Source of the DNA: Halobiforma nitratireducens JCM 10879
Lineage (GTDB): Archaea > Halobacteriota > Halobacteria > Halobacteriales > Natrialbaceae
Direction of reading: 5' to 3'
Assembly: GCF_000337895.1 (NCBI RefSeq)
Contig: NZ_AOMA01000049.1
Span: 1 to 64,000, forward strand
Length of the DNA stretch: 64,000 nucleotides
Below the pieces are notes generated by a model, which had not been told where the DNA came from, did not search any database, and worked only from the letters and a program-made list of their open reading frames with translations. Positions within the stretch are counted from its first letter, which is position 1. Each line of letters begins with the position of its first letter. Of the stretch, positions 2,387 through 57,808 are shown piece by piece. The position numbers were made by a program, and so were the translations under genes.

Positions 2387-3226
2387 TTAGCTGTGCTCGG
2401 TGTCGAAACTGCGCTGGGCCTCGACTCGGTGGCCCGAGGCTGTCAAGAACTTCTCCACATCGATCAACGGAATTCCCTCGATGACGATCCGTTCGGTCGC
2501 CGCGTCGTTCGGCGAGAATCCCTGACTCGAGGTCGTGGAGTCGTCGTCGAAGTCGGTCGTCGCGGCGTCCGATTCGCCGTCGTCCTCGAGTTCGAACGAT
2601 TCGACGACGGGCTCGTCGTCGTCCGGGTCGCCCGTCGTGCCGTCCAGGAGGGAATCGGAACCGTCATCGCTCTCGTCGACCGGTTCTGGACTGACGACCT
2701 GCTCGTCCAGCCGCCGTCGTGGTCGTCGCTCCAGTTCCAGAAGCGTGTCGACCAACGGATGCTCGAGAACGTCGCCGGAGAGTTCGGAGTCGGCGACGCT
2801 GTCTTGGTCGTGGAGGTTCGACTCCGGGACGGGTTCGACACGGAGGACCTCGTCGACTCTGATCGCCGCCGCCTGCTGCTCCGCGGACCGTTCGAAGACG
2901 AGCAGCTTCTCGCCGTCGGGATCACACTCCGCCGGCGGGAAGTGGACCGACGGGTCGATTACTGCGGTGATCTCGCCACGGAGGTCGACGACGCCTTCGA
3001 TGGCGTCTGCGGCCCGCGGAACCGGCGTCACGTCCTCTTGCAGGTCGGTCGTCGTACGAACGTCGTCGACCGGGATACCGAACCGGTAGTCGCCGAGCCG
3101 GAACAGGACGGCTCGAATCTCCTCTTCGGAGTCGCGTTCGCCGTCCGAATCGGCCGTTCGGTTCCGCCCGGACCCGGGACCGTCGGCCCCGTCGATACCG
3201 AGAAGGTTGTCAGGTAGCTCCGCCAT
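2387..3226 (-). CDS. cheW: CheW-domain coupling protein with an acidic insertion
   Basis: At 279 aa it is well above the usual 150 or so for CheW. Residues 36-165 are a recognisable CheW SH3-like fold (AVLFRLGDYRFGIPVDDV, GVVDLRGEITAVIDPS, LLVFERS). The final CheW strand, IEGIPLIDVEKFL, appears only near residue 255. Between them lie about 85 residues rich in Asp, Glu, Ser and Thr. CheW links chemoreceptors to CheA at the membrane array. It is co-oriented with cheY-cheB-cheA, 133 nt away. The CheW call is firm. The insertion may be a flexible linker inside the domain. Confidence 0.9.
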   Translation of the reverse strand: MAELPDNLLGIDGADGPGSGRNRTADSDGERDSEEEIRAVLFRLGDYRFGIPVDDVRTTTDLQEDVTPVPRAADAIEGVVDLRGEITAVIDPSVHFPPAECDPDGEKLLVFERSAEQQAAAIRVDEVLRVEPVPESNLHDQDSVADSELSGDVLEHPLVDTLLELERRPRRRLDEQVVSPEPVDESDDGSDSLLDGTTGDPDDDEPVVESFELEDDGESDAATTDFDDDSTTSSQGFSPNDAATERIVIEGIPLIDVEKFLTASGHRVEAQRSFDTEHS

Positions 3227-3363
3227 TGCTTTCGTTGGAGTATCCGAGCCCAGCGATAAAAACGTTGACCGCCGATCGACGGTACTCGTTCCCGAAGCTC
3301 CTCACGGATCGCGCCCTCGAGAACGCCACGAGTGACCGCCCACGGAACCAGTACGGGAACCCA

Positions 3364-49600: not shown

Positions 49601-51249
49601 TCGCCGTCGATCTCCGGGCAACCGAGACGAACTACCGGCACGCGTCCACCGTCGAGCACGAGGCAGACGGTACCTGGGTCGGTACCGTCGACCTCGAGGC
49701 CGTCCCCGACGAAGGGACCTACGACATTGCGGTCTCCGTCACGGACACAGCGAACAATACGGCCGCGACGACGGCCACCGAGCAGGTCCGGTACGATCGG
49801 ACCGCACCGCGACTCGCCGCGACCATCCGAAATCACGATCCAGGGGAAGAGACCGCCGACGTTCGCGTGCGCTCGAGCGAGCCGCTCCGCGAGGCACCGA
49901 CCGTCACGGTCACGCCTCCGTCCGGCGAGGAGCGGACCCTGACAGGGCTCACCGGAACGGACGACGCCACCTGGGCAGGCACGTTCGACGCGTCCGAGCA
50001 AGGGCAGTACGAGGTGACGGCGACCGGCGAGGACCGTGCGGGCAACCCCGGTAGCGACGACGCCCAGGTGACGATCGACGCGGTGAGCACGACGAACCGG
50101 ACCGTGACGGTGTACAACGAGCGGACGGGCACGTTCGTCGCGTTCAACACGACCGCGGACGTCGAGGAGACGTTCGTGACGATCTCGGAAACGCGATCGG
50201 CACCGCACCCGCTCGATCGCGGCACCAGTGGCGTCGACTTCCTGACGGCCGAACTGGCCGAGAACCTCGATGCGTCGCTCTCGAACGCGACGATCGGCAT
50301 GCCGGTCGACGAGGGACGGTTGCCCGACGGCGTCGCCCCCGACGCCGACGCGGTCGGTCTCCAGTGGTACAACGAATCGGCGGAGCAATGGGAGGATCGT
50401 GACCTCGAGACGAGAGAAATCGACATGGAGCAGGACGGTGAGACGATCGAGGGCACCTACTGGACCGCGACCGTCGATCACTTCTCGACGTACGGGGTGG
50501 TAGCCGAAGACGGGACGCCGCCGGAACTCGTCAGCGTCGACCCCGCGGACGGCGAGACGCTCGCGTCCGAGACGGAGACCCGGACGATCGAACTCGAGTA
50601 TGCGGACGATCACTCCGGCGTCGATACGTCGTCGATCGCGCTCTCGATCGACGGCGAGGACGTTACCGATAGCGAACGGACACAGATCACGTCGACGCAC
50701 ACGACTCACGAGGATTTCGCCGTCACTCCGGACGAGACGTACGAGATCGTCCTCGAGATCGCCGACGAGGCCGGCAACGAGGCAACCTACGAAACCATGT
50801 TCGATGTCGCTGCGGACGACGACAACGACGAAGACGGGGACGGGGACGGGGACGGGAGTGGCGACGATGGTGATAGTGGTGACAGCGGTGACAACGACGG
50901 CGGCAGTGGTGGTAGTATCGGCGGCGGCGGGAGTCTCGGTGGTGGGGGCGACGAGACCGACGAAGCGAACGAGACCGACGAAACGACCGATGCAGGCGAA
51001 GCTGACGACCAAGCGACGGACGATCCGTCGGAAACTGATACCGGTACCGATGCCATTGACGACTCCACGACCGGCGAATCCGAATCCGAAGCCGAGGCCG
51101 AAGATATCGCTTCCGATGAGAGAGACGAACCATCGTCCGACGTAGATGGTGGTTCCGACGACTCGGATGGAATTCCGGGCTTCGGTGTCGCGGGGACAAT
51201 CGTTGCGATGGTCGTGACTCTCGCACTCCACAAGGTCCGCCGGAAGTAG
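46612..51249 (+). CDS. Giant secreted subtilisin-like serine protease with Ig/PKD-like domains and PGF-CTERM-type tail
   Basis: The protein has 1545 residues. A signal-like N-terminus (HILVVGIALLALGLTGVVVA) is followed by an I9-like propeptide (about 45-145). The S8 domain has Asp210 (LDTGID), His247 (DGHGTHVSG) and Ser416 (GTSMAAPHVSG). Repeated Ig/PKD-like modules follow (about 475-1165; e.g. TVTVVDESGNADTATIAVEV). A PGF-pre-PGF-like region (about 1160-1300, ending DHFSTYGVV), a Gly/Asp/Ser-rich linker and a C-terminal GIPGFGVAGTIVAMVV helix with RRK fit the archaeosortase PGF-CTERM signal. It is probably cell-surface anchored. A GTG 12 nt upstream is an alternative start. Confidence 0.92.
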   Translation: MPSRRICRHILVVGIALLALGLTGVVVADAAPATLEDDRDADPDVEIDAELQTTDGTTTVVVRFEERSEHALQPLSEEQRVESLQTHASDTQAPLTELAADIPGLEIERQFWLTNAVAVNVDTDRVDLERLGAVDGVTAIHENYEIEPHGATTTGSSSTAGPAPSVPESTTDPMPRSESGYTDGLEAIDAPTAWSAFDTRGEGVRIAVLDTGIDPDHDDITFDADNWAEFDAGGTHVDSEPHDHDGHGTHVSGTVAGGNTTGTAIGVAPEAELMHGKVLGEDSSTFTAVAAGMEWAVENDADVLSLSLGGGSKVDAIAESVRNANQAGTTVVTSVGNEGAGTSTSPGDVYDAFSIGASDDTTIAGFSSSETVHKDEWSDPPEDWPDEYDVPDVVAPGVDVVSASPGNAYAEKDGTSMAAPHVSGAIALLYANADEDLSPAETRDLLATTADDLGADPTRQGAGRINVTDALLEHSRETLDPTIGPETANVSQSTTITVETDHPIERYHWEIDGTTATTTEPEREYTFEELGASEVSVTLEDIGGEKLPVSSTIDVVDEVPPSAALAANATESVEVGLETVALDASESTDNHEIEHYEWAVDGEPLETTTGPEIEHTFEDTGTRTVTVTVVDESGNADTATIAVEVVDTTPPTAVLEAPPEAVAFTETTFDASDSTDNHEIDRYEWALGDGTETTTDEPVVTHEYEETGNRTVTLTVFDEAGHSHEVTESVTVVAPPTITVDSPDDGAAFADGSVSVDYTLEHTDLEGAAGLEYRILDAADEPVGNWTSADFEATRESMSFDLTTPELADGTYTIELRLVDDEGDDLSLPSATDDVTVTVKTSPPTIDADVGPASDEFDSIGAHNPAVVDVSVTDPRHASTTVVVVGPDEQQVREWDRSAETGDGELTTLEWNATDVDGEPVESGEYEIVVTAADDLGNEAQVDETATVDTTPPTLAIESIDGGHLDEDSRYGNETDDISVTITADDGLGDPDGLESVAVDLRATETNYRHASTVEHEADGTWVGTVDLEAVPDEGTYDIAVSVTDTANNTAATTATEQVRYDRTAPRLAATIRNHDPGEETADVRVRSSEPLREAPTVTVTPPSGEERTLTGLTGTDDATWAGTFDASEQGQYEVTATGEDRAGNPGSDDAQVTIDAVSTTNRTVTVYNERTGTFVAFNTTADVEETFVTISETRSAPHPLDRGTSGVDFLTAELAENLDASLSNATIGMPVDEGRLPDGVAPDADAVGLQWYNESAEQWEDRDLETREIDMEQDGETIEGTYWTATVDHFSTYGVVAEDGTPPELVSVDPADGETLASETETRTIELEYADDHSGVDTSSIALSIDGEDVTDSERTQITSTHTTHEDFAVTPDETYEIVLEIADEAGNEATYETMFDVAADDDNDEDGDGDGDGSGDDGDSGDSGDNDGGSGGSIGGGGSLGGGGDETDEANETDETTDAGEADDQATDDPSETDTGTDAIDDSTTGESESEAEAEDIASDERDEPSSDVDGGSDDSDGIPGFGVAGTIVAMVVTLALHKVRRK

Positions 51250-51584
51250 GCGGGCCTGCACGACCGTCGTGGTTCCGTGCCCCTTCGAGAGGAGGGGCAG
51301 TCTGGAGTCTTCAGCCGCCGATCGGAGCCACTTCGGGCTCGGTCGCACTGGCCACAGATGTCGATAGCACCCCGAACTGGCGCTGCTCGGGTCACTGTTG
51401 TGTCCGACCCAATCGAAGCCACGTCGAAGCGTTGGTTGTCTTTCGAGGGTACAGGAGTACACGTCGGCTCGTTCCGGTCGGCAGCGAAAGTAGACCGGAC
51501 GGAGCGAGGGGAGACGAGAGCCCCAGTCTCGCGAGACGGCCGACGACGGAAACGGGGCGAAAACGGGAGTCCTCCGGCGGGCCC
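51250..51584. other. Intergenic region downstream of the protease
   Basis: No gene is supported in this 335-nt stretch. TGCCCC-(10 nt)-GGGGCA (51278-51299) could form a hairpin at the protease mRNA end. It lacks a clear T-run, so I do not call it a proven terminator. Confidence 0.35.
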
Positions 51585-51722
51585 TTACTCGTCGTCCGGA
51601 TCGCTACTCTCGAGTTCCGCGATCGCGTTCGCGACGTCCGAATCGGTCGCTTCCTCGAGCCGGTCGTTCCGATCACAAGCGCGGGGGGACTGTCTCGTTT
51701 CGGTGGGTTCCTGTTCGCTCAT
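51585..51722 (-). CDS. Possible small acidic protein (45 aa)
   Basis: The frame reads MSEQEPTETRQSPRACDRND to ELESSDPDDE. The acidic, helix-prone composition (DSDVANAIAELESS) fits haloarchaeal small proteins. No family is recognised and there is no strong promoter. It could be a chance frame; an in-frame Met 45 nt upstream would give a basic leader and seems less likely. Confidence 0.35.
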   Translation of the reverse strand: MSEQEPTETRQSPRACDRNDRLEEATDSDVANAIAELESSDPDDE

Positions 51723-51871
51723 CGTCGGGACTCGGGTTGGTCTTCTCTTTGCGTTCGAGTCCATCATAGGTTCCGACGATTCTCAGGCCCTGAAGTCACC
51801 CACGAGGGCCAAACGGGAGTGAGGGAGAGACCGACACCGAGTAACAACTGCAACGATTTGCACACTGATCG

Positions 51872-51911
51872 CCGATCCGTCTGGCGATCGGGTGCACACT
51901 GACTTGCAGTG
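51872..51911 (-). repeat. 40-nt inverted repeat, left copy
   Basis: Read on the minus strand it starts CACTGCAAGTCAGTG (5-bp stem hairpin) and ends CGCCAGACGGATCGG. It matches 55957-55996 in opposite orientation at 37 of 40 positions. It lies downstream of a usp gene, as the right copy does. Here GATCGCC...GGCGATC adds a second 7-bp stem. Confidence 0.85.
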
Positions 51912-51973
51912 GCTAGTATAAGTGTCGATCACCCGCCGTCTGTTGTTCTCCTCGTGGCAGTGTGGACTGGCAG

Positions 51974-52816
51974 TTACGCCGTCCGCGTCGGCGGGACGAG
52001 CATCACGTTCCCGTCCGCTCGAGCGACGACCTCCTCGGAGACGCTTCCGAGCAGGAGACGCCGAAGCCGGCTGTGTCCACGCGAGCCGACGAGGATCGTC
52101 GTCGGCTCGAACTCGCTTTCGGCAGCGAGGATCTCGCCGGATGGATCTCCCCGTCGCACGTCGACCCGCGTCTCGATTCCCCACTCCTCGAGTCGCTCGG
52201 CCAGCTCGGCCAGCCGCCTTTCGGGATCGTCTTCGGTCGGGTCCGGGTCTTTCGGCGTCTCGACGTGGACCAGCGTCGCCTCCTGTGTCGCGTGACGAAG
52301 ATACGAGAACGATTCGAACGCGCGGTCGGCGTTCTCGGAGAAATCGGTCGCGTACAGCAGCCGTCGAAAGAGGTGTTGTCTGAGCACGTCCGGTTCCTCG
52401 GACCCGCGTTCGATTCGATTGACGAGCAGCGGCGTCTCGGTCGTCCGTGCCAGGTTGCGTGCCGTCGATCCGATCACGCGGTTCTCGAGAGGGCTCTTTC
52501 CGCGGGAGCCGACGACCGTGAGACTCGCCCCGATCGTCTCGGCAATCCCCCTGATCCGTCGGTGGGGGGTCCCGCGAACGACGTGTACCTCGACGTCGAA
52601 CTCCGCACGCTCGATCACGCGTCGATACGTCTCGATCGCCTTCTTGCGTCGGTTCTCGAAGTCGATACCGGGCATCCCCGCGTGGACGTTAGACGGGATC
52701 ACCGTCACCAGATGCATCTCCTCGATACCGATCCGACCGAGACACGCGAGGCAGGTTTCGTTCTCGATGGTCGCCTCACTGGCGGCCGACAGGTCGGTTG
52801 CGAGTACCGCTCTCAT
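51974..52816 (-). CDS. Tandem universal stress protein (two Usp domains)
   Basis: The protein has 280 residues. The first Usp domain (1-140) starts MRAVLATDLSAASEATIENE, with VVGSRGKSPLENRVIGSTAR. The second (about 148-280) starts RRLLYATDFSENADRAFESF, with ILVGSRGHSRLRRLLLGSVS. Both carry the ATP-binding signature. Cys residues cluster in ETCLACLG (about 22-28). It was started at 52816, where the conserved strand begins. Upstream, ACAATA-A-TATTGT (52836-52848) may be the TATA or an operator. It lies inside the inverted-repeat-bounded segment. Confidence 0.92.
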   Translation of the reverse strand: MRAVLATDLSAASEATIENETCLACLGRIGIEEMHLVTVIPSNVHAGMPGIDFENRRKKAIETYRRVIERAEFDVEVHVVRGTPHRRIRGIAETIGASLTVVGSRGKSPLENRVIGSTARNLARTTETPLLVNRIERGSEEPDVLRQHLFRRLLYATDFSENADRAFESFSYLRHATQEATLVHVETPKDPDPTEDDPERRLAELAERLEEWGIETRVDVRRGDPSGEILAAESEFEPTTILVGSRGHSRLRRLLLGSVSEEVVARADGNVMLVPPTRTA

Positions 52817-53130
52817 ACTCGTCGTAGTCCCTGTTACAATAATATTGTTTTCATAGGCCAATACAAATACCACAGTGACTCCGGTCGGGCGGGATCGCTG
52901 TCGTGTCTCTCGCCACTCATTTTCCCGAACGGGCCGACCAGACCACGGCGGTAACTTCGCGCGCTGGCTGGTATCGAATCCGTTCTTCATCTCTTTCTCG
53001 GTCGCTATATTCGGAAAACGTATGGAGATATTCTCGTTGGATAGCCGTTACATACTCTGCAGTAATATTGTGTACCAATCCCAAAAGCATTATACGCACT
53101 CTTCGGGTAGGGAGAACTGAGTAGAAATCC
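52817..53130. promoter_or_regulatory. Divergent regulatory region between the tandem usp and the TauE module
   Basis: No gene is supported. It has the ACAATAATATTGT inverted repeat (52836-52848), TAATATTGTG (53063-53072) and a TATA-like CATTATACGC (53088-53097) serving the plus-strand module. CACAATATT, the reverse complement of the second site, recurs at 54606-54614 before the HTH gene. Confidence 0.5.
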
Positions 53131-53175
53131 ATGATCCGCACACGATCGGAGGCGACCCGGGTGATCGACACGTGA
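53131..53175 (+). CDS. 14-codon mini-ORF overlapping the next start codon
   Basis: ATG at 53131 opens MIRTRSEATRVIDT. Its TGA (53173-53175) overlaps the GTG start at 53172 (GTGA). It would be the first ATG after the TATA box near 53090. It may couple translation; nothing shows a functional peptide. Confidence 0.3.
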   Translation: MIRTRSEATRVIDT

Positions 53176-53321
53176 TCGAGTTCGCGTCGCTCTCGCCAGC
53201 GGTACAGGCAACGGTACTCCTCGTCGTGGTTCTCGTCGAGGCGGTCGCCCTGTATGCCGGCTACGGCGTCGTCGAACGGGCCGTCGCACCGCCGCTCATC
53301 GAGACGATCGAAAACGCATAG
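53172..53321 (+). CDS. Tiny single-helix membrane protein next to TauE (DUF7512-like)
   Basis: This 49-residue protein with a GTG start reads (M)IEFASLSPAVQATVLLVVVL and ends APPLIETIENA. One hydrophobic helix spans about 12-33. The stop (TAG at 53319) is 3 nt before the TauE ATG, so the two are surely cotranscribed. I remember a small haloarchaeal family of this shape beside sulfite exporters, but the name is uncertain. A small auxiliary subunit of the exporter is a plausible role. Confidence 0.7.
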   Translation: MIEFASLSPAVQATVLLVVVLVEAVALYAGYGVVERAVAPPLIETIENA

Positions 53322-53324
53322 TCA

Positions 53325-54356
53325 ATGGAGCCACTCGGACTGAGTCTTGGACTGTTGGCGCTGTTCGTCGCCTTCGGTTTCATGGTCGGAGTCTTCTTCG
53401 GGTTCTTCGGAATGGGAGGCTCGTTTCTCGTCACCCCTGCGCTGTTGATCCTCGGTTACCCCGCACCGGTGGCGATCGGGAGTTCGATGGCGTTCGTCTT
53501 CGGCACGGCCGTCATCGCGACGATGAAACACCACGATGTCGGAGAGGTCGATTACAAACTCGGCGCGTTGATGTTCGTCGGGATCGCCCTCGGGATCGAA
53601 GCCGGGAAAGTCCTCGTCTACGGTCTCGAGGCGATCGGTCGAGCCGAACTCGTCGTCGGGACGGCGTACGTGCTGTTGCTGGCGGCGATCGGTGGGCTGT
53701 TCGTTCGGAGCGCGCTCAGGACGGGAAGTGAGGTTACCGACGACAGCAGCGGTGACGGAAACGAAGAGGAAATCCCCGAGATCGCGACGAAAATCAAGTC
53801 GTACAACCTTCCGCCCATGGTCACACTGGCTGACGGGAGCAAGGCCTCCATGTGGACGATTTCGGGGGTCGGGGGCGGCGTCGGTGTCGTCTCCGGGTTC
53901 CTCGGAGTCGGCGGCGGCTTCATCCGTATGCCTGCGATCTACTATCTCGTCGGCGTCCCACTCGCTGCTGCCGTCGGCACGAGCCTCTTCGGCGCGCTCA
54001 TGTCCGGTGCAGTCGGCGCGTTCACCTACGGACTCGACGGTGTCGTCGACCTCGGAGTCGTGACGGGGCTGCTGGCCGGCAGCGCGCTCGGTGCCCGTAT
54101 CGGTTCGGCGGCGACGGCCTACGTCGACGAGGACGACGTAACCATCTACTTCGGCGTCATGCTGTTGCTGGCGAGTTTCGCCGTCGCGCTCGGCGAGTTT
54201 GCAACCTGGCTCGAGATGCCGATCCTCGATACGATGAGTTTCGTCCTGCTCGTCGGCTCGTCGGCGTTCGTCACGGTCGTCATCTTCTACTACGGTGCAC
54301 AAGCGGTTCGAACGAACGATATCGACCCGACTGCAACGGCGAGGGGGGACGATTAG
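53325..54356 (+). CDS. Sulfite exporter TauE/SafE family permease
   Basis: The protein has 343 residues and about 8-9 membrane helices in two homologous halves. Each half holds a glycine-rich signature: FFGFFGMGGSFLVTPALLIL near residue 25 and SGFLGVGGGFIRMPAIYYLV near 190. A charged loop (about 128-160, SEVTDDSSGDGNEEEIPEI) separates the halves. TauE/SafE proteins move sulfite, sulfonates or related anions; the substrate here is unknown. It is followed after 301 nt by a Cys-containing HTH gene that may regulate it. Confidence 0.93.
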   Translation: MEPLGLSLGLLALFVAFGFMVGVFFGFFGMGGSFLVTPALLILGYPAPVAIGSSMAFVFGTAVIATMKHHDVGEVDYKLGALMFVGIALGIEAGKVLVYGLEAIGRAELVVGTAYVLLLAAIGGLFVRSALRTGSEVTDDSSGDGNEEEIPEIATKIKSYNLPPMVTLADGSKASMWTISGVGGGVGVVSGFLGVGGGFIRMPAIYYLVGVPLAAAVGTSLFGALMSGAVGAFTYGLDGVVDLGVVTGLLAGSALGARIGSAATAYVDEDDVTIYFGVMLLLASFAVALGEFATWLEMPILDTMSFVLLVGSSAFVTVVIFYYGAQAVRTNDIDPTATARGDD

Positions 54357-54657
54357 CTGCTCGAGACGGCTGCCACGACCGTCGTGTTTCTCGAGGTCGT
54401 CTCGCGGTCGGCGAAGTCTCGAGCGCGACCGGGCCGACGGTAAGCGACTCTCTTTCAGGGAATCCGCGATCCGGATGGCTCACACGCGAGTGTCGCGACG
54501 GCACAGAGTCTTCGATCGTGCTCGCATACCGACCCAGACCTGGGTGGCAGAAGCGTCGTGTGATCCGCCCAGATCAGCCTTTCCGCGGCTGCTATTCGGG
54601 GTTGCACAATATTCACACAATCCTTTTATCGGCGCGTCTCCTATCTTCGGACAGATC
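54357..54657 (+). promoter_or_regulatory. Spacer with HTH gene promoter
   Basis: It is gene-free apart from the promoter. GCACAATATTCACACAATCC (54604-54623) directly precedes the TATA-like CCTTTTATCGG (54621-54631), 27-37 nt before the ATG. CACAATATT is shared (inverted) with the region before the TauE module. Confidence 0.5.
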
Positions 54658-55065
54658 ATGGCTAACTCGATGGCGGAGCAACTCCAGCAGGATATGGAAT
54701 GCGAGGGGCTGCTGGAGTGTATTCACGGTCTCAAGCAACTGGACAAGGAGTGCTTTCGGGTGATGGTCGAGAGCGACGAGCCACTGACCATCGACGAGGT
54801 CGCCGACCGGGTCGACCGCGAGCGTTCGACCGCCTACCGTTCGATCCAGCGGCTGCTCCAGGCGGGATTCATCCAGAAAGAACAGATCAACTACGACCAA
54901 GGCGGGTACTACCACGTCTACTACCCGTCGGACCCCTCCCAGATCGCCGACGACATGCAGCGTAAACTGAACGACTGGTACGCGAAGATGGGACAGCTCA
55001 TTCAGGAGTTCGAGGACAAGTACGAGCAAGTCGACGCCGACGACCCGACGCCTGTCGAAAGCTGA
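54658..55065 (+). CDS. TrmB-like helix-turn-helix regulator with conserved cysteines
   Basis: The protein has 135 residues. The winged-helix domain (about 30-95) includes PLTIDEVADRVDRERSTAYR and SIQRLLQAGFIQKEQINYDQ. A C-terminal coiled helix (DDMQRKLNDWYAKMGQLIQE) likely dimerises. Cys residues in MECEGLLECIHG and DKECFRVM lie N-terminal to the HTH, as I recall for thiol-stress regulators of the OxsR kind. It is expected to act as a redox- or sulfur-responsive repressor or activator of the adjacent transporter. That function is inferred. Confidence 0.82.
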   Translation: MANSMAEQLQQDMECEGLLECIHGLKQLDKECFRVMVESDEPLTIDEVADRVDRERSTAYRSIQRLLQAGFIQKEQINYDQGGYYHVYYPSDPSQIADDMQRKLNDWYAKMGQLIQEFEDKYEQVDADDPTPVES

Positions 55066-55438
55066 CCACAGTGTCCAGCTCCGCGAAGTTCACCCTCGAA
55101 GGGTCCGACTGTCTCTCCCTCCCTTTACCGTTCTCGGTCCGTCTGGCCTTCCCCGTCGACGCTTCGACGCGCGCTGATCGATACGTGAGCCACCCCTCGT
55201 CCGAACTGTCTTGTTCGGTAAGAGAAAGACCGAGACCGACGTTCGATCACAGTTGTGCGGATACCGGTCCGTCTCGAGCGTCGTCTCCGGGACGGTGGGC
55301 GACCGAGAGCAGAGCAGAGCAGAGCGGACGGCGGTCAGCGTTTCCCGTTGCTTTCAGCTACGATTGCCGTGATTTCGTCTTCCCACGGAATTAGAAGAGC
55401 GCGTTCGATTTATTTCGATCCGGAGCGACGATACGTGT
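55066..55438 (+). promoter_or_regulatory. Spacer upstream of a usp gene
   Basis: There is no supported gene. It has a short gagca repeat (about 55305-55326). The TATA-like TCGATTTATTTCGA (55402-55415) lies about 25-35 nt before the usp ATG at 55439. CGAAG-rich inverted words near 55085-55105 are weak. Confidence 0.4.
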
Positions 55439-55888
55439 ATGAACGTACTCGTCGCGGTCGACGGTTCCGATGCGTCAGAAAACGCGCTCGCTCACGCCAT
55501 CGACGTGGCGGAGGCGATGGACGGCACCGTCACTGCCGTCCATACCATCGATCCGTCCGTCTTCGACGTCGGTGGCAGCGATCCCATCGCGTCCGCGTCC
55601 GACGCCGACGAGCGGCTGATCCTCGAGAGCGTCGAGGACGCCGAACAGCGCGGGCTGGATGTTCTCGAGGAGGCGGTCGACCTCGCGTCAGAACACGGGA
55701 GCGATGTCGGAACGGAGCTGCTGTACGGGGACCCGGTCGAGGAAATCGCCGCCTTCGCCGACGACGAAGGGTTCGACGCCATCTTCGTCGGCCACCGGGG
55801 ACGATCCGGGCGAACCGAACTGCTGGTCGGCAGCGTCGCGAAGCAACTGGTCGAGCGGGCGACGGTTCCGGTGACGGTCGTCCGCTGA
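55439..55888 (+). CDS. Universal stress protein (UspA family)
   Basis: This 149-residue single Usp domain begins MNVLVAVDGSDASENALAHA, with GHRGRSGRTELLVGSVAKQL (ATP signature) and PVTVVR at the end. A Glu/Asp-rich middle is normal for the family here. It is the last gene of the segment bounded by the 40-nt inverted repeats; its stop is 69 nt before the right repeat. Confidence 0.94.
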   Translation: MNVLVAVDGSDASENALAHAIDVAEAMDGTVTAVHTIDPSVFDVGGSDPIASASDADERLILESVEDAEQRGLDVLEEAVDLASEHGSDVGTELLYGDPVEEIAAFADDEGFDAIFVGHRGRSGRTELLVGSVAKQLVERATVPVTVVR

Positions 55889-55956
55889 TGTCTCGTCTCG
55901 GTGGACTCTGATCGAAGCTCTCACTGACACACGAAGCGATGCAGACACTACAGTAA

Positions 55957-55996
55957 CACTGCAAGTCAGTGCGCACCTGCTCGCCAGACGGATCGG
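55957..55996 (+). repeat. 40-nt inverted repeat, right copy
   Basis: It starts CACTGCAAGTCAGTG and ends CGCCAGACGGATCGG. It is 37/40 identical to the minus strand of 51872-51911, with mismatches at repeat positions 16, 22 and 24. It sits in the convergent space between usp and tfb. A shared GACACT word also lies 5' of both copies. Confidence 0.85.
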
Positions 55997-56064
55997 TGCT
56001 CTCCGTTCGCCCGACACCCCGCTCACTCGACGTTGCCGTCGTGCGATCGGGGCTGTGCTGTCGC

Positions 56065-57072
56065 TCAGTCACTCTCACGGGCCGCGTTCGATTCGGTCTC
56101 GAGCAGTTCCTGGTAACGGTTTCGAATGGTTACTTTGCTAATCTCCGATACCTCGCTGACCGCCAACTGCGTTACCGTCTCCTCGGCGTCGACTGTCGCC
56201 GCGTAAACGGCGGCCGCGGCGAGGCCGACCGGGTTTTTGCCGACGTGGACCTCCTCTTCTTTCGCCGCCCGAAGGAGCGCTCGAGCGCGTCGCTCGATCT
56301 CCCCGGAGAGGTCGAGTTCCGAGACGAACCGCGGCACGTACCGTTCGGGATCGGCCGGCTGAACCTCGAGACCGAGTTCACGGACGATATAGCGGTACGT
56401 GCGTTTGAACTCCATCCTGTCGACACGACTGGCCGCGACGACGTCGTCGATACTTCGCGGAGTCTTCGCCTGGCGTGCCGCCGCGTAGGTCGCCGCCGAT
56501 GCGACGCCTTCGATCGAGCGGCCCGGCAGGAGGTCTTCCTCGAGGGCGCGCCGGTAGATGACGCTGGCGGTCTCACGGACCGACTCGCTCAGTCCGAGTG
56601 CACTCCCCATCCGCTCGATCTCGCCGAGCGCCTGCTTGAGGTTGCGCTCTTTCGAGTCGCGGGTACGGAACCGCTCGTTCCAGGTTCGTAGCCGCTGCAT
56701 CTTCCGGCGCTGGCGGCCCGACAGCGCTTTCCCGTAGGCGTCTTCGTCCTGCCAGCCGATGTTCGTCGAGAGCCCGTCGTCGTGCATCAGCTTCGTCGCT
56801 GGCGCGCCCACGCGGCTCTTCTCGTCTCTCTCACCGGCGTCGAACGCGCGCCACTCGGGGCCACGGTCGATCTCGTTTTCTTCGACGACGAGACCGCAGC
56901 CGTCACAGACGGTCTCGCCGCGTTCGTCGTCGGTGACGAGGGGGCCGCGACACTCGGGGCAGCGTCGCTCGTCGTCCTGGCTCTCGCGTTCGCGGTCGGT
57001 CGTCGTTCGCGTCGATTCGGGACGCGATTCGTGCGTCTGCTCGTCGTCGGTTCGGAGACGTGCTTCTGTCAT
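56065..57072 (-). CDS. tfb: Transcription initiation factor IIB (TFB)
   Basis: The protein has 335 residues. A charged N-terminus precedes the zinc ribbon (RRCPECRGPLVTDDERGETV, with CDGCGLVVEE; about 38-62), the B-reader (GPEWRAFDAGERDEKSRVGA) and two cyclin folds (about 140-235 and 240-330, including RSIEGVASAATYAAARQAKT and KNPVGLAAAAVYAATVDAEE). It recruits RNA polymerase to TBP/BRE promoters. Haloarchaea have several TFBs and this is one paralogue. The start at 57072 gives the usual length. It converges with the usp gene. Confidence 0.96.
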   Translation of the reverse strand: MTEARLRTDDEQTHESRPESTRTTTDRERESQDDERRCPECRGPLVTDDERGETVCDGCGLVVEENEIDRGPEWRAFDAGERDEKSRVGAPATKLMHDDGLSTNIGWQDEDAYGKALSGRQRRKMQRLRTWNERFRTRDSKERNLKQALGEIERMGSALGLSESVRETASVIYRRALEEDLLPGRSIEGVASAATYAAARQAKTPRSIDDVVAASRVDRMEFKRTYRYIVRELGLEVQPADPERYVPRFVSELDLSGEIERRARALLRAAKEEEVHVGKNPVGLAAAAVYAATVDAEETVTQLAVSEVSEISKVTIRNRYQELLETESNAARESD

Positions 57073-57808
57073 GGGACTCACCTGCGGGTGGAGGGCAGGT
57101 CGGCGAGGACTACCGGACGGCAAAGCCCGAAGAAACCCGGAAGTCGCTCTTACTAACCACAAGTAATGGCGAAAAGTGTTTAAATCTTTTGTCACATAGG
57201 GGAAATATATCGACGGATACCGATCGAAGCGTTCAGGACCCGAAACTTCGGTCCGAAAGCGTCCCTGACGGCTCGAGTGCCAGGGGATCGATGGCCGGGA
57301 CCAAGGGAGGAATATACTTTCCTCGTGGTCCGTCTCACGTCGGGGACGTCTCCCGACATGCCGTATTCGCGGTCCGACTCGTCTAATGGACTACTCCGAC
57401 GACTGACAGGCGATCACCCCGGCGGGACCGACAGATGGTGGTCCTCGAGTGGTCCACGCCGCCGTAACCGGGAGATTCAGACGGTGAGGGCCGCGCTGTC
57501 GGCCGATCGGGGATCGGCAGTCGGTTACTGGCGGCTATGTGCCGTCTCCCGCAGATCGGTTTTTCACACCAAACCAATACTCCAACCGAGTTTCGGCTCG
57601 AGGCTAATCGTACCTGGCAGCCGTTGCACACGGTCAGTATCGCCAGCCGATACGCGTCCGGAGAGCCCGTCTCGAGCCAGTGGGTCAGCTCGTACCGATG
57701 TCGTCTCCGCGTTCGGTCCGTGGGAACGAACGGCGCTGTTGGTCTTGTTGTATGGTTTTGGACCTTATGCACAATACTTTAGTAACTGAGCCTCGTAGCA
57801 TTTCGTGT
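57073..57808. promoter_or_regulatory. Long divergent intergenic region between tfb and VKOR
   Basis: This 736-nt stretch has no gene I can support. Minus-strand candidates for tfb are GATTTAAACAC (57176-57186) and TTAGTAAGAG (57145-57154). A plus-strand TATA-like CTTTAGTAAC (57777-57786) precedes the VKOR ATG by about 25 nt. Low-support reading frames occur on both strands and show atypical Cys/Arg-rich composition. Confidence 0.45.

Follow-up and report, generated by a model that had tools for sequence, protein, structure and literature searches.

Two copies of a dispersed Natrialbaceae MITE form the inverted repeat around usp and TauE genes in Halobiforma nitratireducens: a candidate partner of IS630-type transposases

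RESULTS

An inverted repeat surrounds usp and TauE genes

We have analyzed a 64-kb stretch of the H. nitratireducens genome (the window), in which the following features concern us. The protein domains were assigned with Pfam.

51837..51920, minus strand: element A copy 1, a nearly whole 84-bp palindromic MITE (profile match E 3.7e-22)
51867..51911, minus strand: left arm of the inverted repeat, inside copy 1
51974-52816, minus strand: Usp (usp1)
53172-53321: DUF7512 49-aa protein
53325-54356: TauE
54658-55065: TrmB-like HTH protein
55439-55888: Usp (usp2)
55949..56000, plus strand: element A copy 2, left part only, profile positions 1-53 (E 2.8e-8)
55957..56001, plus strand: right arm of the inverted repeat, inside copy 2

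A preliminary description had reported that 51872-51911 (minus strand) and 55957-55996 (plus strand) match in opposite orientation at 37 of 40 positions. This was confirmed in the 64-kb window, and the pair could be extended to 45 nt (51867-51911 and 55957-56001, 89% complementary), being the longest inverted pair within 50-58 kb. The 21-nt core of the repeat occurs exactly twice in the window, which was seen in 0 of 100 shuffles. The 40-nt inverted repeat is real and beyond chance. The gene content given in the same description (two usp genes, a 49-aa protein, TauE/SafE and a TrmB-like regulator) was right according to Pfam. The second usp gene is followed by a convergent TFIIB-like gene, and both window copies of element A lie 54-61 nt past a usp stop codon.

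The repeat had been taken to bracket a module. We found that it defines none: each arm lies within a copy of an element of 84-86 bp, palindromic from end to end, that is dispersed in the genome and is described below.

The repeat arms belong to a dispersed palindromic element

The preliminary description had proposed counting the 40-mer in the genome and looking whether its copies follow usp genes. In the genome of the strain (a draft of 3,688,747 bp in 205 contigs, 85% complete), the 40-mer pattern gave 46 matches at up to three mismatches, 23 per strand, and the reversed-pattern control gave 0. Around the first 20 copies, about 86 bp were conserved, running from CTATAGTAGCCACTG to GGTACTATAG, and the element A consensus was derived from genome-wide copies. 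Profile searches on fetched stretches placed element A at 80 distinct sites, 39 of them on the plus strand. This number is a lower bound, with 40 of 101 candidates scored in this genome and about 22 per genome in the family survey. Among the options put forward at the outset, that of a dispersed MITE-like element was the right one. The preliminary description had stated that many dispersed copies unrelated to the module would favor a MITE, and by this test the module reading fails.

Profile positions 1-81 of copy 1 align at 51840-51920, the last three positions (51837-51839) being extrapolated and mutated. Copy 2 is truncated or decayed, having lost its right end, with a right half that cannot be aligned. 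With its 84-86 bp, element A is short and has no transposase or other coding capacity. Its copies fall outside predicted open reading frames in 76 of 80 cases, the coding density of the window being 85% with the same gene caller. Where both neighboring genes were predicted (n = 53), the gaps holding a copy were tandem in 24 cases, divergent in 15 and convergent in 14. These gene calls rely on a home-made codon score by which some genes are missed (such as the TrmB-like gene of the window), and 23 of the 80 copies lie at the edge of a fetched stretch, without full gene context.

The CACTG...CAGTG hairpin of the preliminary description does exist, but it is only a fragment of a hairpin that spans the whole element. 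The left and right ends of the consensus agree at 21 of 30 positions as terminal inverted repeats and pairing is full-length. Folded as RNA, the consensus derived from 152 distinct near-full copies pairs along its whole length (-46.4 kcal/mol). Standard pairs made up 91.7% of the paired cells in these copies, versus 22-46% when the partners were slid by 1-3 positions. A structure derived from the consensus should beat its own slid versions, and hence this comparison demonstrates the palindrome and not an RNA function. Double changes occur mostly at three pairs that separate subfamilies, so that the independent events are few. Around 3208-3248 of another locus (L204), we have also observed a miniature version of about 41 bp, which has A-like ends and from which the center is deleted.

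Such a hairpin, together with the position of both window copies shortly past a usp stop codon, would be expected of a structured RNA or 3'-end element (a terminator or an mRNA stabilizer) selected downstream of usp and other genes. We consider this very unlikely. The gaps described above reveal no 3'-end preference, and a Usp-like reading frame was present in only 5 of 72 loci fetched from the genome, two of which are those of the window, which speaks against a link with usp genes. In addition, element A is absent beside usp1 in the relatives (see below), and the double changes reflect subfamily differences. An element tied to the 3' end of usp genes was rejected on the mixed use of gaps and the missing usp link. 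An Rfam family was likewise rejected, with no covariance-model match at gathering score in the window and none over the element in five loci at E up to 1.

The pair of copies in the window is ordinary

When region 51000-57500 was searched in relatives, usp1 and the TauE region were found side by side in 9 of 9. A profile search of ten fetched loci found no element A beside usp1-TauE in the relatives. Within the genome itself, 12 neighboring pairs of element A copies are less than 4.2 kb apart, versus about 7 expected by chance; six of the 12 are inverted, and the window pair is one of the 12. Because usp1-TauE is kept without element A in 9 of 9 relatives, and considering the number of close pairs, the window pair is ordinary. 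It flanks the usp and TauE genes by accident, and no function for the pair is needed.

The inverted orientation and the outward-facing usp genes had also raised the idea that functional inverted repeats bracket a 4.1-kb segment able to invert or to move. The truncation of copy 2, the conservation of usp1-TauE without the element and the ordinary spacing of the pair make this highly improbable, and a bracketed or invertible module was rejected. Homologous inversion between element A copies may occur. Taken together, the three options of the preliminary description (an invertible or mobile segment, a MITE-like element, and a structured RNA or 3'-end element) were partly supported.

In all nine relatives searched, usp1 adjoins the DUF7512-TauE/SafE region (51974-54356 in the window), which suggests that this Usp is functionally linked to TauE-type transport. 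As a separate observation, a copy of element A on a Natrialba magadii plasmid (NC_013924.1, 194494-194580) overlaps an annotated universal stress protein.

Element A is distributed across Natrialbaceae

Element A was detected in 19 of 25 Natrialbaceae genomes searched and in one of 16 other genomes of the order, there at E 8.6e-4. An exact 30-nt pattern, a kind of contig scan that favors close copies, matched 59 stretches of the GTDB collection, all titled Natrialbaceae or belonging to genera that we take to be members. The element is carried by 37 plasmid records; the 30 listed are all haloarchaeal, and the listed matches include Haloarcula and Halomicrobium at 79-83%. Viral carriage was rejected, with no phage record containing element A and no viral contig containing the exact pattern.

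Insertions fit the duplication of a TA target

Two close species (G001 and G002) have three element A copies in common, flanks included, and others are species-specific. Two of three sites could be read as filled and empty. For the G001 copy at C1:35322-35407, the empty site in G002 reads GGGAGCTAGAGTAGC and the filled one GGGAGC-TA-element-TA-GAGTAG; the continuation of the empty site resembles the start of element A, which blurs the left boundary. For the G002 copy at C10:15683-15767, the empty site of G001 has the length expected for one TA, but this TA is mutated. At the third site, the G001 sequence differs over about 1.2 kb.

Additional evidence came from a second dispersed palindromic repeat (repeat B), of about 86 bp, with ends TACGGTTTACTGT and ACAGCAATCCGTA flanked by TCA or TGA. 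It gave 52 matches on both strands of the genome, some being the same place found on both strands. Examples are as follows.

H. nitratireducens genome, C63:157066-157152: repeat B
H. nitratireducens genome, C24:22377-22462: repeat B
L151:908-995: repeat B
L168:5636-5722: repeat B

Some copies of repeat B are interrupted by element A at a single position and there have a TA on either side of the insert, versus one TA in uninterrupted B, which reads for example GGTAAATAGTTACAG or GGTAACTAGTTACAG at that position. This arrangement of A between two TAs was seen in L007, L013, L019 and L195, and also in L008, where the B match is weaker. The evidence for TA duplication thus comprises the nested copies and one clean empty site, the second empty site having a mutated TA.

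Among the flanks of 154 copies, C precedes TA in 114 and G follows it in 103, with both in 76. Since most copies have C before or G after TA, CTAG is the preferred target. A comparison of flank k-mers (60 near-full copies among 69 distinct ones) revealed no clear excess of matches at any offset that would indicate a longer target duplication. Element A is mobile, and its insertions fit TA, preferentially CTAG, with TA duplication.

These features bear on whether element A could be REP/RAYT-like or PATE/IS200-IS605-like and be mobilized by a Y1 tyrosine transposase that duplicates no target. One end has GTAG 5' of the hairpin, like the GTAG REPs treated in the accessible part of PMC3733652, and IS605-type elements and PATEs abound in haloarchaea, according to the available text of PMC3119063. 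However, both ends of element A carry terminal inverted repeats, and its insertions are consistent with a duplicated TA, whereas PATEs are described, in that same portion of PMC3119063, without inverted terminal repeats or target duplications. We regard movement by a Y1 enzyme as very unlikely.

IS630-type transposons of relatives share the termini of element A

A possible involvement of IS630 (TA, CTAG) had been noted before any transposon was looked at. As far as its text could be consulted, PMC2170065 states that TA is almost the only target of ISY100, a bacterial element of the IS630 family, and that this TA is duplicated upon insertion; a reference cited there has the CTAG preference of IS630 in its title. 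We have then examined the ends of the IS in 30 DDE_3 (IS630) loci of relatives, the best of more than 100 matches. In eight of these 30, the transposase is flanked on either side by [C/T]TATAGTA[G/A] termini, with 1061 bp from one to the other. IS630 transposons (about 1061 bp) of Natrialbaceae relatives share the element A termini, TA-TAGTA[G/A], and the first 8 bases of element A are identical to the eight IS630 copies with both ends. Past these bases, A and IS ends agreed at 12 of 22 positions in the best of four comparisons (p 0.0013 by shuffling); p values of 0.008, 0.013 and 0.10 were obtained for the other three. In one of the copies (L100), winged-helix (HTH) domains are encoded in one frame and DDE_3 in a second frame that overlaps it.

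We propose that element A is a MITE and that an IS630-type transposase mobilizes it in trans, a reading to which we assign a probability of roughly 80%; the link is drawn from end sequence and target only. An IS630/Tc1-mariner transposase would recognize the TATAGTA[G/A] termini and move element A in trans by cut and paste. Copy 1 would have inserted downstream of usp1. Copy 2 would have entered the gap between usp2 and the TFIIB-like gene and lost its right part later.

The IS630 type with these ends (one or both) was present in eight genomes of the family (G001, G005, G006, G013, G017, G021, G022 and G024). Element A occurs in six of these eight and in 13 of the 17 others, and there is no association between the two. 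Six genomes with element A (G004, G008, G009, G011, G012 and G023) gave no DDE_3 match at E 1e-5. The H. nitratireducens genome has four DDE_3 matches, and the two that were fetched (L089 and L104) show no such ends, an absence that weighs little in a draft. A transposon with the full ACTGCAA-type ends of element A was found neither in this genome (157 ends counted, the first 100 of them listed and 20 stretches fetched) nor in two complete genomes, where unpaired ends led to another 20 stretches; all stretches fetched at A ends in the three genomes contained 84-bp-type or truncated elements. The cognate transposases may have been lost or be absent from draft assemblies; alternatively, the true partner may belong to a different family.

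Elements A and B share subterminal boxes

Boxes common to element A and some B copies are ACTGCAAGTCAGT in A and ACTGTAAGTCATT in B, as well as AAATCGTTGCAG in A and AAATCGTTACAG in B. The central stems of B vary between copies and are self-complementary by eye. RNAalifold on 16 B copies recovered 10 terminal pairs only, of which two showed double changes; the central stems, being of variable length, were missed. Element A and repeat B could be two branches of one haloarchaeal hairpin-element superfamily, with common subterminal boxes, in which termini, targets and the central stem were exchanged as units while the hairpin was kept. We put this forward as a tentative idea that is more probably wrong than right.

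We have made two further observations on these repeats. One locus (L198:4111-4192) holds a chimera, the left half of B being fused to A from about position 20. Another (L092 of G026, around 970-2079) is an IS630-type locus whose ends may be TA-CAGTCGTGCG and TA-CGGTCGTGCG in a TGA/TCA context; its ends and target are possibly related to those of B, judging from a weak match of 10 of 14 positions.

DISCUSSION

The present analysis disposes of a false lead, that of a usp/TauE module that would be regulated or invertible. What takes its place is a family-wide Natrialbaceae MITE, for which we have a consensus, a preferred target and a candidate IS630 partner. Copies of element A that differ between close species are ready insertion markers. 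If the superfamily of A and B were true, several groups of IS630 transposases would be parasitized by one adaptable scaffold, the CTAG-like site inside B serving A as a landing place.

Element A resembles the MITEs of IS630/Tc1-mariner elements in being short and non-coding, with inverted ends and a duplicated TA target, and in having termini common to IS630 transposons of the same archaeal family. Unlike them, it shares almost nothing with the IS outside the ends, and the whole element is one hairpin. Both TA duplication and common ends were found, and no cognate IS630 was seen among the two of four DDE_3 matches fetched from the draft H. nitratireducens genome.

ERIC sequences of enterobacteria are 127 bp long. 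Like element A, ERIC is an intergenic MITE present across a whole family in very different copy numbers, according to the part of PMC10969869 available to us; it differs in being bacterial and longer, and the likeness is one of description. PATEs are, like element A, haloarchaeal, palindromic, transposase-free and dispersed, but they are presented in the sections of PMC3119063 at hand as derived from IS605-type elements and as having no terminal inverted repeats.

The nearest described haloarchaeal elements are SMR-A and SMR-B of Haloquadratum walsbyi. The available text of PMC3119063 gives them 80-110 bp, inverted terminal repeats and tens of copies, and reports that they tend to insert in other palindromic repeats, their mobilization being called enigmatic. 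Size, inverted ends, copy number and nesting in palindromes are thus common to SMRs and element A. The same text describes SMRs without target duplication and with ends unrelated to known transposons, whereas element A fits TA duplication and has IS630-like ends. Because of these descriptions, we have not filed element A with the SMRs. The nesting of A in B resembles that of SMRs in PATEs, as far as the latter is documented in that text, and offers a transposase class to test.

No description of element A was found in the literature searched, a search with subscription papers mostly outside its scope. The portion of the Natrialba magadii genome paper that could be consulted (PMC3403918) mentions transposase genes and no such repeat. 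With terminal inverted repeats, dispersed copies and an insertion polymorphism with empty sites, element A is a MITE by the usual criteria: the family is new, and the kind is known.
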